Assembly (NCBI GenBank): GCA_016932695.1
Contig: JAFGCH010000094.1
Location: 1-37,159 of the forward strand
Direction: 5' to 3'
Length of the DNA stretch: 37,159 bases
Origin: Acidimicrobiia bacterium
GTDB taxonomy: Bacteria; Actinomycetota; Acidimicrobiia; Spongiisociales; UBA11373
A program made the position numbers and the translations under genes. Each line of letters begins with the position of its first letter. Position 1 is the first letter of the stretch. The notes beneath the pieces are model-generated. The model searched no databases, had not been told where the DNA came from, and worked only from the letters and a program-made list of their open reading frames with translations. Below are positions 8,795-37,159 of this stretch, in pieces.

Positions 8795-10183
8795 ATGAGC
8801 GACACTACCCCGGGCTCGCGAGACGTGCCGCTCGAGGCCGCCCTGCCCTCTGCCGAGATCCCGCCCGCCCTGCCGAAGGCCGCTTCGGGCGAACCCGCCC
8901 TTGCGACGCCGACGCCGCTCGAGCCCGGACTGCCCTCCGCGCCTCCCGAGGAGACACCCGCTCTGGAGTCGGCCGCAGCCGACGAGCCGGCTCCCCCCAC
9001 GTCCCCCTCCTACTACGGCTTGCAGGACTTCTGGCCGGCCGCCGGCACCTTGCCGCCCACGGGCCCTCCCCAGCCCGTGGCGCGCCGGGAGCAGAAGTCG
9101 CGCCGCGGGAGGTGGTACGCCCTGGTGGGGCTGCTGGCCGGGGCCCTGGGAGCGGCGCTCACCGCCGGGGCGCTCCTTCTCTGGTTCGACCGCGGGCCGA
9201 CGACCGAGGTGATCCGCCAGGTGGAGACCCGCATCATCGGCATCGGCGGCGACGTCCCTGCCTCCGAGGTGGCCCGGGCGGTGCTCCCTTCCATCGTCAC
9301 CGTCGAGGTGAGCGCCGGCGTCGCCGATCTCACCGCCGACTTCGCCGCCGACGGCTCCGGCTCCGGCGTGGTGCTGACCTCCGACGGCTTGCTGGTGACC
9401 AACGAGCACGTCGTGTCCGGCGCCGCCGCAGTGCGGGTCATCTTCGCCGGCGGACGTGCCTATCCCGCCGAGGTGGTAGGGCAGGACGCGGTGACCGACC
9501 TGGCGGTGCTCCGCATCGCCGCCGACGACCTCACCCCGATCGCCCTGGGATCTTCAAAGGACCTGGAGATCGGTGATACCGCCATCGCGGTGGGAAGCCC
9601 GCTGGGCCTGGAGGGAGGCCCCTCGGTCACTGTGGGGGTGATCTCCGCCTTCGACCGGCAGCTGCGCACCGGAGTGAACGAGTACCTGTTCGGCCTCATC
9701 CAGACCGATGCCCCCATCACCCGGGGCTCCAGCGGCGGGGCGCTGGTGGATGCCCAAGGCCGCCTCATCGGGATCACCGCCGCCATCGGCATCAGCGACG
9801 TGGGTGCCGAAGGCCTCGGCTTCGCCATCCCCGTGGAGCTGATGCAGGTGATCACCGAGCAACTCATCGCCCGCGGGGCCGCCGACCATCCCTTCCTCGG
9901 AATCGAGGGGGTCACCTACTTCCGCCAGGAGCCCGACGGTTCCTCGGTGCCCGCCGGGGTATACGTGAGCCGGATCCTCGCCGACACCGCCGCCGCCGAA
10001 GCTGCGGTGCGTGAGGGCGACGTCATCCAATCGGTGGGCGGCGAGCCGCTGGCCACCATGGAGCAGCTGGTGGTGCTGCTGCGCTTCTACCGGGTGGGCG
10101 AGGTGGTGGATCTGCAGATCGACCGGGGAGGAACCCTGCAGACCATCCCGGTGACCCTCATGGAGCGCCCGGAGGGGACGTGA
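8795..10183 (+). CDS. htrA: HtrA/DegP-type membrane-anchored serine protease with PDZ domain
   Basis: An envelope quality-control protease of 462 residues. Residues 1-105 are a Pro/Ala/Glu-rich cytoplasmic region, followed by one membrane helix (about 108-130), a trypsin-like domain and a C-terminal PDZ domain (about 365-455). The triad is visible: His205 in VTNEHVV, Asp235 in VTDLAVL and Ser313 in GSSGGAL, where GSSGG replaces the usual GNSGG. The PDZ core is YVSRILADTAAAEAAVREGDVIQSVGGEPL. The track ORF starts earlier, but that part shadows moaE. The ATG at 8795 lacks a Shine-Dalgarno and is probably leaderless. The stop overlaps the next gene as GTGA. It resembles mycobacterial PepD/HtrA in architecture. 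Confidence 0.9.
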   Translation: MSDTTPGSRDVPLEAALPSAEIPPALPKAASGEPALATPTPLEPGLPSAPPEETPALESAAADEPAPPTSPSYYGLQDFWPAAGTLPPTGPPQPVARREQKSRRGRWYALVGLLAGALGAALTAGALLLWFDRGPTTEVIRQVETRIIGIGGDVPASEVARAVLPSIVTVEVSAGVADLTADFAADGSGSGVVLTSDGLLVTNEHVVSGAAAVRVIFAGGRAYPAEVVGQDAVTDLAVLRIAADDLTPIALGSSKDLEIGDTAIAVGSPLGLEGGPSVTVGVISAFDRQLRTGVNEYLFGLIQTDAPITRGSSGGALVDAQGRLIGITAAIGISDVGAEGLGFAIPVELMQVITEQLIARGAADHPFLGIEGVTYFRQEPDGSSVPAGVYVSRILADTAAAEAAVREGDVIQSVGGEPLATMEQLVVLLRFYRVGEVVDLQIDRGGTLQTIPVTLMERPEGT

Positions 10184-11250
10184 CCGACAACCTGTTCGAC
10201 CGGCTGCGCCGCCTCCTGGAAGCCCGGGGGCCGGTCAACTGGGGACTGGCCCGGGAGATCGCCGAGAGCGTCGCCGGCCCCGCCGAGCCGGTGGAGCCCT
10301 GGCTGGCCGAGGAGTTCGTGGATCTCACCCACGCCGCGGCGCGGCGGGTGGCGGCCGCCTCGCCGCTGGACCCCGTCGCCGGGGAGGTGCGGGCCCTGGA
10401 TCGGCGCACTTGGGCGGCGCAGAGCGTGGCGGGCTTCACCTACCTGGCCGAGCCGCTGGCCGCCAAGATGGCCGGAGGCCTGGAGGGCGAAGCCGACCCC
10501 TTCCTCCAGCAGTTGGGACCGGCACTAGTGGGCATGCAGATGGGCTCGATGGCCGGCTTCCTCAGCCATCGGGTGCTGGCCGGTTTCGATGTCGGCCTTC
10601 CCGTAGACGGGGCGCCGCCCAGCTTCGTGGTGCCCAACGTCGCCGCTTTCATCGCCGACCACGACCTCGACCCGCAGCAGTCCCGGCTGTGGCTGGCGCT
10701 GCACGAGGCGGCCCACCGGGCCGAGGTGGCCCTCCCCTGGGTGCGCCGCCACCTCGCCGACCTCACCGGGGCTTTCGTGGACGGCCTCCGCCCCGACCCC
10801 TCCGGCCTGCAGGAGCGACTCGAAGCACTGCAGGACCCGGAGCATCTCGAAGGGTTGCTTGCCGATCCCTCCGCCCTGAGCGGCCTGGTGCCCGGGCCTG
10901 AGTCCGAGCAAGCCCTGCGCCGCCTTCAGGCCTTCATGGCCCTGCTGGAGGGATACGCCGAGTGGCTGGTGGGGCGAGCCGCCCCCGGCCTGATCCCCGA
11001 AGCGCCCCGTTTGCGCGAGGCCATCGACCGCCGCCGTGCCGAGCCTTCCCCCGGCGAGCAGATGCTGCAGCGCATGCTGGGCCTCGACCTGCAGCACCAC
11101 CGCTACCGGCGCGGTACCACCTTCTGCGAGGAGGTGGCCCGCCGTTGGGGAGAGCAGGCACTCTCCCGGCTTTGGGAAGGGCCCGAGGCCCTCCCCACGT
11201 CGGCCGAACTCGACGACCCGGTGGGCTGGGCGGCCCGCATCCTGCTCTAG
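10180..11250 (+). CDS. DUF2342 zincin-like metalloprotease family protein
   Basis: A 356-residue protein of the actinobacterial DUF2342 / zincin_2 family, sometimes labelled F420-biosynthesis associated. The metal-binding motif HEAAHRAE lies at 175-182, in the context LWLALHEAAHRAEVALPWVR, which fits the HExxH signature of zincins. A later conserved segment is LMALLEGYAEWLVGRA (about 245-261). The family is thought to be a metal-dependent hydrolase, but no substrate is known. The start is GTG at 10180, overlapping the htrA stop as GTGA, with GGAGGGGAC just upstream, so it is translationally coupled to the protease. The C-terminal half ends in GLDLQHHRYRRGTTFCEEVARRWG, typical of the family. 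Confidence 0.87.
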   Translation: MTDNLFDRLRRLLEARGPVNWGLAREIAESVAGPAEPVEPWLAEEFVDLTHAAARRVAAASPLDPVAGEVRALDRRTWAAQSVAGFTYLAEPLAAKMAGGLEGEADPFLQQLGPALVGMQMGSMAGFLSHRVLAGFDVGLPVDGAPPSFVVPNVAAFIADHDLDPQQSRLWLALHEAAHRAEVALPWVRRHLADLTGAFVDGLRPDPSGLQERLEALQDPEHLEGLLADPSALSGLVPGPESEQALRRLQAFMALLEGYAEWLVGRAAPGLIPEAPRLREAIDRRRAEPSPGEQMLQRMLGLDLQHHRYRRGTTFCEEVARRWGEQALSRLWEGPEALPTSAELDDPVGWAARILL

Positions 11251-34910: not shown

Positions 34911-35300
34911 CTACCCCGGGATGTGCGCTTCCACCCAGCGCACGATCTCCGTCAGCGAGGCGCCCGGGGTGAAGATCTCCGCCAGGCCCTTCGCCTTCAG
35001 GGCGGCGATGTCGTCCTCCGGGACGATGCCCCCGCCGAACACCACGATGTCGGCGGCATCGCGCTCCCGCAGCAGTTCCACCACCCGGGGGAAGAGGGTC
35101 ATGTGGGAGCCCGACAACAGGGAGAGGCCGATGCCGCCCACGTCCTCCTGAAGGGCGGTCTCCACGATCTGCTCCGGCGTCTGGAAGAGGCCGGAGTAGA
35201 TGATCTCGCAGCCGGCGTCGCGCAGCGCCCGGGCGATCACCTTGGCACCCCGGTCGTGCCCGTCGAGGCCGGGTTTGGCGATGAGGATGCGGCGGGGCAT
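34911..35300 (-). CDS. Stand-alone cobalamin-binding domain of methylmalonyl-CoA mutase type
   Basis: A 129-residue B12-binding flavodoxin-like domain, as found at the C-terminus of methylmalonyl-CoA mutase or as the small subunit of split mutases. The base-off/His-on motif is complete: DGHDRG at 13-18 with His15, then SLLSGSH and [10 protein letters not shown]. The N-terminal start [29 protein letters not shown] is typical of the split forms. No catalytic mutase subunit is in the window, so the partner is elsewhere. Its place before sucCD fits a route from methylmalonyl-CoA to succinate, which is inference. ATG 35300 has no clear ribosome-binding site; a TAACCT hexamer ends 10 nt upstream. 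Confidence 0.9.
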
Positions 35301-35351: not shown

Positions 35352-37159
35352 TCAATGCTCGGGCCGGAACACCCAGATGAGCAGGCGGTCGTCGACATCT
35401 TCGAGCACCAGGACCACCCGGTCGAGGCTCGCTGCAGCCATGTAGACCACGCCGGCCGGGGGATCCAGCCCAGGCGCGCCTTCCGCCCAGCGCCAGGTCC
35501 CATCGGGCTCGCGGAGCCAGACCACCGGGTCGGAGCGGTTGTAGACCTCTCCGGCAGGCACGTAGGCCTCCCCACCGGCCACTACGAGGACCTCGCCCAT
35601 GCCTGCCAGTGCCTGCGGAATGAGGACCCCGCCGGGCTGCACCGCGAGGCCTCCGAGCGGGGTCGACAGCCAGGACTCCCCATCGGCCGTCGACCACAGG
35701 ATCTGGTCCGGGCTATCGACGGCCGCCAGGTACCGGTGGACCAGGGCAGTGGCGTCAAACTGGAAGGCGGAGAGGCTCGCCGGAGTGAGCATCTCCCAGG
35801 AACCCCAACGATCGGAGGCCGCCGCCAGCCATTGGCGGTCGAGTGGGCTCGGCGTGGCGAAGGAAGAGCCGACGGCCACCATCCGCCCATCCAGCTGGTA
35901 CACGTCGTAGAACTCGCTGTACACCAGCAGGCGCCCGAGGTCCTCCGCCTGCCACGTCAGGCCGTCGGCCGAGGACCACACCATGCCCACGCCGGTGAAC
36001 TCCCCGGTCTGCCAATCGACTGCGGTGGGCCGGTGAGATGTCCCCACCGCTACCAGGCCCGCCGGGGTCACGGCCACATCGCGTACCCGGCCCGAGCCGA
36101 GGGTCACCTGCGTCCAGGCCGTCCCGTCGGAGGAGTACCAGACGGTCGCCTGGTCCCCCACCGATCCCCCTGCCAGGTAGCCCGCTTCGCCGTGGTCGAG
36201 CGACCCCGGCCCTTCCGGAGTGGTGAAGTCGCCCAGGTAGGCGACCTCTGCCCAAGTGAGGCCGTCCTCGGATCGCCAGACCGACGCATCCCCGGGATGG
36301 CGCGCCAGGGCCAGGAACTGCTCACCGTCCCAGAGCAAGTCGCGCACCAATCCCGAACGGCCGCAGCAGGGTAGAGACGACTCGAACCACTCCCCCAAGA
36401 TCGGTTCGGCGAGGGCGAAGGTGGTCACCGTCGCCGTGGGCCCAGCCGTCTCGTCACCTGGGCCCGGAGCCACCCGGCCGGAGAACTCGATCTCCCCGAG
36501 CGCCAACTCGAGGAACGGCTCGCGATCGCCCCAGCGCTCGCCGGGGTAGGCGCCGGTCACCCGGATCATGAGATAGGTGGTCTGCAGGCTCGGCACCATG
36601 AAGCCCTGCGGCTCGCGAGAGTCGAGCAGCTGGAGAAACACCGGCTCCGGGGCGTCATCGAGTCGGACCTCGACCGACTCGATGCGGGCGTTGCGGTGGA
36701 ACAGTTCCTCATTGCCCAGGTTGCGGAAGGCGAGGTCCACCAGCTGCACCGGAGGATCGAAGCGGACCAGGATCTCGGCCCCCACCCCTCCGGCCGGGGC
36801 GTTCCAGGCCGTTTCGGAGTCTCCGTCGATGAGCGCCGCGCACGGGGATGAGGCCAGCTCGCCGCTGCAGTCGATAGTCGCTGGTGTCAGGCGTTCAGGC
36901 GCAAACCCCTCCGGTGCGCCCGCTGCACCGGCGGCCGTCGTCGACGAGTCTGCCGGGATGCTGGTACCGGCCGGCGGCATGGTTGCCGCCGGGGGCGATC
37001 CGCCCCGCAGGAACAGCAGCCACCCACCGCCGGCGAGCAGCACGACCGCAGCCGCCACCACCGCGACCACCCAGCCTCGCCTCGGCCGGGACGCTGCCTG
37101 TTCCCCCTTGGTGATCGCTCTCAGGTCGAGGGGCGGGGCGATCTCCTCGAACAGCGCCC
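35352..37159 (-). CDS. Membrane-anchored protein with NADase-type glycan-binding domain and Asp-box repeats, 5' end outside the window
   Basis: A partial gene. The track starts it at a GTG (37070), but the frame stays open through all 89 nt to the edge and reads as sensible protein (LFEEIAPPLDLRAITKGEQ), so the start lies beyond the window. Order: a cytoplasmic part, one membrane helix (VVAVVAAAVVLLAGGGWLLFL), a Pro/Ser/Thr linker, a discoidin-like NADase-type glycan-binding domain (LIDGDSETAWNAP, FRNLGNEELFHRNARIESVEV, GYPG-like AYPGERWGDRE, ending LGEIEF), and a C-terminal region with four Asp-boxes of the form S-x-D-G-x-x-W (SEDGLTW, SSDGTAW, SADGLTW, TADGESW). Asp-boxes mark beta-propellers such as sialidases, but no catalytic residues were identified. 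A surface binding role is likely; the ligand is unknown. Confidence 0.82.
   Translation of the reverse strand, partial: ALFEEIAPPLDLRAITKGEQAASRPRRGWVVAVVAAAVVLLAGGGWLLFLRGGSPPAATMPPAGTSIPADSSTTAAGAAGAPEGFAPERLTPATIDCSGELASSPCAALIDGDSETAWNAPAGGVGAEILVRFDPPVQLVDLAFRNLGNEELFHRNARIESVEVRLDDAPEPVFLQLLDSREPQGFMVPSLQTTYLMIRVTGAYPGERWGDREPFLELALGEIEFSGRVAPGPGDETAGPTATVTTFALAEPILGEWFESSLPCCGRSGLVRDLLWDGEQFLALARHPGDASVWRSEDGLTWAEVAYLGDFTTPEGPGSLDHGEAGYLAGGSVGDQATVWYSSDGTAWTQVTLGSGRVRDVAVTPAGLVAVGTSHRPTAVDWQTGEFTGVGMVWSSADGLTWQAEDLGRLLVYSEFYDVYQLDGRMVAVGSSFATPSPLDRQWLAAASDRWGSWEMLTPASLSAFQFDATALVHRYLAAVDSPDQILWSTADGESWLSTPLGGLAVQPGGVLIPQALAGMGEVLVVAGGEAYVPAGEVYNRSDPVVWLREPDGTWRWAEGAPGLDPPAGVVYMAAASLDRVVLVLEDVDDRLLIWVFRPEH

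Follow-up and report, generated by a model that had tools for sequence, protein, structure and literature searches.

INTRODUCTION

In Clostridium thermocellum, the gene for a SigI sigma factor is followed by that for the membrane regulator RsgI, which sequesters the sigma factor with its intracellular part and senses carbohydrates through exchangeable modules outside the cytoplasm, with several paralogues per genome (PMC6056542). The ECF52 proteins of Streptomyces, represented by SCO4117, are actinobacterial ECF sigma factors that carry a zinc-finger anti-sigma domain, a membrane helix and an extracellular carbohydrate-binding domain in one polypeptide (PMC8999054, PMC5826349), and in ECF57 WD40-like propeller repeats form a C-terminal extension of the sigma factor itself (PMC8999054). 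Class I (ASDI) anti-sigma domains measure ~100 amino acids and often contain H-x3-C-x2-C (PMC7406223), while the class II domains of CnrY and others consist of two short helices wrapping the sigma factor (PMC7406223, PMC8103513). The anti-sigma factor RsiV doubles as the receptor of a protein from outside the cell, lysozyme (PMC4183432, PMC5014341). Sialidases and sortilin/Vps10 contain the S-x-D-G-x-x-W (Asp-box) blades that recur in the protein described here.

The window analysed in this study, a 37,159-nucleotide stretch forming an entire contig (G000:C90) of an Acidimicrobiia genome, ends in a gene whose product shares known or predicted features with each of these systems. As with SigI/RsgI, its relatives consist of a sigma-factor gene followed by a gene for a membrane protein with exchangeable outer parts, in several paralogues per genome; however, SigI falls outside the present ECF family, RsgI sensors are carbohydrate-binding or glycoside-hydrolase modules, and we found no sequence relation between the window system and SigI/RsgI. 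Unlike in ECF52 and ECF57, the sigma factor and the membrane-bound sensor are encoded by two genes, and no zinc motif was seen in the short cytoplasmic tag of the window family. That tag is comparable to the class II anti-sigma segments in length, without shown sequence similarity, and is joined to a different sensor; RsiV differs in both sensor domain and host group. The outer region matches sialidases and sortilins in profile searches but differs from them in blade number. We consider it quite probable that the window protein partners an ECF sigma factor as its membrane sensor, most likely as its anti-sigma factor.

RESULTS

The window gene is cut by the contig end

The open frame occupies positions 35352..37157 of the minus strand and encodes 601 amino acids; its stop codon lies at 35352-35354 and its 5' end is open. 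Because the window is a whole contig, of a genome assembled into 161 contigs and 95.5% complete, the N-terminus was lost at an assembly break. An internal GTG at 37070 is not the true start, in agreement with a sequence-only reading of the same DNA, which had called the annotated start wrong and the frame open beyond the window edge. A homologue on contig C36 of the same genome starts with MSETGDRLR-ALFEEIAPPLD, indicating that ~9 N-terminal residues are absent from the window protein.

From N- to C-terminus the protein contains a short charged segment, a membrane helix, a Pro/Ala/Thr-rich linker, a discoidin domain and a propeller. The helix, also expected from the sequence-only reading, is a hydrophobic segment at residues ~28-50 (37008..37076, minus strand). 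A full-length structure model built from two sequences likewise placed a helix at 27-47, although at a pLDDT of 43 this model was otherwise useless and the propeller modelled alone gave a better result. The linker, rich in Pro, Ala, Thr and Ser, spans residues ~51-88 (36894..37007, minus strand).

A NADase-type discoidin (F5/8 C-like) domain follows at residues ~93-230 (36468..36881, minus strand). The NCBIfam model NF047619 recognised it with 51.5 bits against a curated cut-off of 38 (E = 1e-13), as the sequence-only reading had anticipated; Pfam PF25302 scored slightly below its cut-off (E = 6e-6) and PF00754 gave E = 1e-4. The nearest paralogue at the DNA level, on contig C94, was rejected as a relative of the whole protein, the discoidin domain being all that they have in common. 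It is a different protein with a zinc ribbon, a membrane helix and a discoidin domain sharing 49% identity with the one described here (G000:C94 ~10183-10620, L002 and L053; also L076-L080, L084 and L085). In many genomes of the order its gene adjoins radA (in several also disA) and sugar/nucleoside-type permease genes.

The outer region is predicted to form an Asp-box propeller

Residues ~250-598 (35364..36410, minus strand) form a predicted Asp-box beta-propeller. Four S-x-D-G-x-x-W boxes had been claimed for this region. Three are exact, namely SEDGLTW (residues 296-302, 36252..36272), SSDGTAW (342-348, 36114..36134) and SADGLTW (396-402, 35952..35972), compared with a mean of 0.012 in shuffled versions of the protein; the fourth, TADGESW (490-496, 35670..35690; all minus strand), counts only if Thr is allowed at the first position. 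Repeats ending in Trp (W257, 302, 348, 402, 454, 496 and 555) are spaced by 42-59 residues, which fits ~7 blades.

No Pfam model for Asp-box or sialidase domains matched the window protein alone. A profile of the propellers from 12 relatives returned Asp-box proteins from the PDB, with a DUF6242 protein as best match (E = 1.5e-6), followed by sialidases and sortilins (~1e-6 to 3e-3); a scan of the collection with the propeller profile returned a single locus. A model of the propeller alone, built from two sequences (pLDDT 65, pTM 0.70), resembled PDB beta-propellers (best E = 2e-8, TM ~0.57, 567 matches at E ≤ 1e-3). These models and the S/T-x-D-G-x-x-W repeats support, with moderate confidence, a propeller fold for the outer region, the point on which the sequence-only reading had asked for a structure.

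Sialidases carry the motif F/Y-R-I/V-P. The sequence-only reading had also raised a search for the sialidase Arg triad, and here the outcome was negative: the motif is absent from the window protein and from all 28 surveyed partners (see below) with at least two Asp boxes, and a catalytic role is therefore unlikely. The absence of the motif, together with the lack of any Pfam or NCBIfam sialidase match, led us to reject a sialidase assignment.

Synteny suggests a place for the gene behind a sigma-factor gene

The window contig contains no sigma gene of this system. However, a DNA search of the same genome located a second copy of the window N-terminus, MSETGDRLRALFEEIAPPLDVRAV..., at the end of contig C36 and directly after a sigma-factor gene. 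The two N-termini share 33 of 35 bases, with ALFEEIAPPLD identical, and the C36 partner is a paralogue (62% over 37 amino acids).

The neighbouring genes, whose names (pcrA, sucC, radA, B12-binding protein) were assigned by eye from sequence, served as synteny markers. Downstream of the window gene, and outside the system, lies a gene for a small B12-binding protein of the methylmalonyl-CoA mutase C-terminal type (34911..35300, minus strand). In 10 genomes of the family, pcrA/uvrD is followed, directly or after one small gene, by the B12-binding gene and sucC. In the source genome the B12-binding gene follows the window gene, while pcrA (64-71% identical to the copies of relatives) is found on C36, where it precedes the sigma gene and points towards the contig end. 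The gene order in relatives thus suggests that the ends of C36 and the window contig most probably face each other, which would put the window gene a short way after the sigma gene of C36.

Since the partner that begins on C36 is a paralogue and not the window gene itself, partner genes or whole cassettes may stand in tandem at the junction (cassettes do so in L141 and L145), or the assembly may be at fault; an operon spanning the junction is putative. A stretch of 28 identical bases is common to the right end of the window (37132-37159) and to G000:C36 20407-20434, which would explain the assembly break and is its likely cause. In G001, another genome of the same genus, the B12-binding gene is preceded by a different gene and the window protein is absent.

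The N-terminal tag is common to sigma-linked membrane proteins

The N-terminal segment preceding the helix, ALFEEIAPPLDLRAITKGEQAASRPRR (37077..37157, minus strand), is a putative cytoplasmic tag common to sigma-linked partners, as judged from alignments with the C36 and L034 partners and from a family alignment. At L034, a gene for a 152-amino-acid ECF-type sigma factor overlaps the start of a gene for a 768-amino-acid partner. Residues 2-583 of the window protein are homologous to this partner (28% identity, E = 6e-28), covering the FEEIAP tag, helix, discoidin domain and propeller; the tag aligns with LFEEIAP of L034. A further complete pair of sigma factor and Asp-box partner is present on contig C91 of the source genome.

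Across the family, the N-terminal 25-30 residues follow the loose consensus M-x-D-L-x-x-Q-L-R-x-Y-x-D...P/E-x-V/I-D. Against the cut window N-terminus the broad class-wide tag profile scored ~5 bits, no better than chance, and the tag assignment therefore relies on the closer relatives.

The window protein has the layout of a transmembrane anti-sigma factor, with an N-terminal cytoplasmic segment, one helix and an outer C-terminal sensor. It does not fall into class I, since the tag has ~30-50 amino acids before the helix and lacks H-x3-C-x2-C. Nor does it fall into the RsgI group: RsgI families were absent among the Pfam/NCBIfam matches listed and the partner sigma factor is SigE/ECF-like. 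An NCBIfam anti-sigma model matched 6 of 37 domain-scanned members weakly, far below its cut-off.

A class-restricted sigma family is invariably paired with such partners

We built a profile from 7 sigma factors and searched genomes of the order (138), class (198) and phylum (297), taken as one per species and many of them fragmented. The family is restricted to one class: at E ≤ 1e-35 it was found in 37 of the 198 class genomes and in 4 of the 297 phylum genomes, all 4 from that same class. Its members resemble the SigE-family model TIGR02983 below the curated cut-off (E ~1e-16) and Pfam Sigma70_r4_2 (E ~1e-13 to 1e-15), and match ECF sigma factors in the PDB over most of their length; the family may already carry an ECF group number.

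We examined 93 sigma loci, 89 of them with sufficient sequence downstream. In every one of the 89, the sigma gene overlaps a following gene whose product is a membrane protein with a short cytoplasmic N-terminus and a helix near the same position as that of the window protein (median start at residue 50). The overlap, typically 4, 8, 11 or 14 bases, is partly built in, as partners were chosen by a script on position, length and codon composition. Membrane helices played no part in this choice, and the helix test passed by all 89 partners was passed by 29% of 536 control genes. An adjacent co-oriented ECF sigma gene thus accompanies all 89 relatives, and for the window gene it is suggested by the synteny with C36.

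The outer parts are diverse. At least two Asp boxes occur in 28 of the 89 partners, and a domain scan of 37 proteins (the window protein, L041 and 35 sigma-linked partners) identified PASTA, BamB/PQQ, Kelch, thioredoxin-like, Reg_prop, SnoaL, germane and discoidin domains. L041 (G006:C28, 2142-3482) is a propeller partner that has the tag, without a discoidin domain or an adjacent sigma gene.

Other ECF systems show comparable arrangements. At L044, L049, L051 and L073 (G000:C53), distinct ECF sigma genes precede genes for Asp-box membrane proteins, which suggests that the Asp-box sensor was recruited repeatedly by distinct ECF sigma systems. At L038 (G000:C35, 103-2609) another ECF sigma gene is followed by one for a membrane protein whose outer part appears germane-like (spore germination) by eye; a relative lies in G001:C75.

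Sigma factor and tag stay together as outer domains change

Among 87 pairs, similarity between sigma factors correlated with similarity between tags (Spearman 0.39, permutation maximum 0.14) and less with that between outer parts (0.19); the sigma-tag correlation partly reflects shared ancestry and is no proof of contact. Closely similar sigma factors and tags can bear unrelated outer domains. L120 and L081, from genomes of different families, have a sigma score ratio of 0.87 and partners 58% identical over residues 1-99, beyond which there is no similarity. Tandem sigma-partner cassettes occur at L141 (G053:C19), L145 (G034:C18) and L185 (G075:C32); in L141 two adjacent partners have unrelated outer parts beside similar sigma factors and tags.

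Upstream of the sigma gene, TGTC[GA] fell within one 25-base bin at 27 of 51 loci, compared with 1-6 in the other bins, a peak that fits an autoregulated ECF promoter. In the source genome the strict local promoter pattern occurs once, before the C36 sigma gene, and hence identifies no regulon beyond that operon.

DISCUSSION

The domain content of the window protein, the invariant sigma pairing of its relatives, the persistence of the tag as outer domains are swapped and the contig synteny are direct observations, and we infer that the tag binds the sigma factor and inhibits it, as well as the class of ligand and proteolytic release. The short cytoplasmic tag would tether the sigma factor to the membrane, and the single helix would connect it to the discoidin domain and Asp-box propeller outside. 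These would bind a ligand, for which a glycan or some other polymer of the envelope or extracellular space is plausible. Release of the sigma factor would follow from ligand binding or from proteolysis that this sets off, and the freed factor would then transcribe its own operon and further targets. The protein would probably convert an outside signal into a change of gene activity, rather than cut sugars. Glycan or polymer recognition, proposed in the sequence-only reading, is possible; as the protein is of a type that partners an ECF sigma factor, the part outside the cell most likely acts as a signalling sensor rather than as a lectin or enzyme that works on its own at the surface.

The same domains would also suit a surface lectin or adhesin, in which discoidin and propeller bind an extracellular polymer, the helix is an anchor and the tag a relic or chance resemblance. 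Such domains often bind glycans or proteins, L041 has tag and propeller with no sigma gene beside it, and the cut window N-terminus matches the class-wide profile poorly. We regard this as unlikely, however, given that the closest full-length homologue is coupled to a sigma factor, that no sigma locus of the 89 lacks such a partner, and that synteny points to a sigma gene beside the window gene. A membrane-anchored, sialidase-like glycoside hydrolase is very improbable; the Asp-box propeller and its profile matches to PDB sialidases are what it would predict, but sortilins and other non-enzymes have Asp boxes too, and neither the sialidase motif nor a sialidase family match was found.

Overlapping pairs of sigma-factor and membrane-protein genes are usually sigma/anti-sigma pairs. 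This argues against the alternative that the partner does not inhibit the sigma factor but assists it as a positive co-regulator or scaffolds it at the membrane, which we consider quite unlikely. A tag of ~30 amino acids is indeed unlike the ~100-amino-acid class I domains (PMC7406223), and the NCBIfam anti-sigma matches are weak, yet short class II domains such as that of CnrY do inhibit (PMC7406223, PMC8103513).

Returning to the sensor-partner interpretation, we advance a broader proposal more tentatively, at somewhat below even confidence: that this ECF sigma family, restricted to one class, relies on a minimal anti-sigma tag not described before (~D-L-x-x-Q-L-R-x-Y-x-D, ~30 residues), which serves as a universal plug for exchangeable outer sensors, Asp-box propellers being common among them, and that the discoidin domain and propeller of the window protein let it read a glycan or polymer. 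Our literature search returned no report joining Asp-box with sigma and anti-sigma, and none joining ECF sigma factor, anti-sigma factor, beta-propeller and Actinobacteria.

If this proposal holds, an uncultured actinobacterial class would possess a plug-in form of signalling, in which one sigma/tag pair serves many outer sensors. Pairs such as L120 and L081 would provide naturally exchanged sensors on a similar sigma factor and tag for probing the mechanisms of sigma release. The many membrane proteins with Asp boxes or discoidin domains that are labelled "hypothetical" would thereby gain a function.
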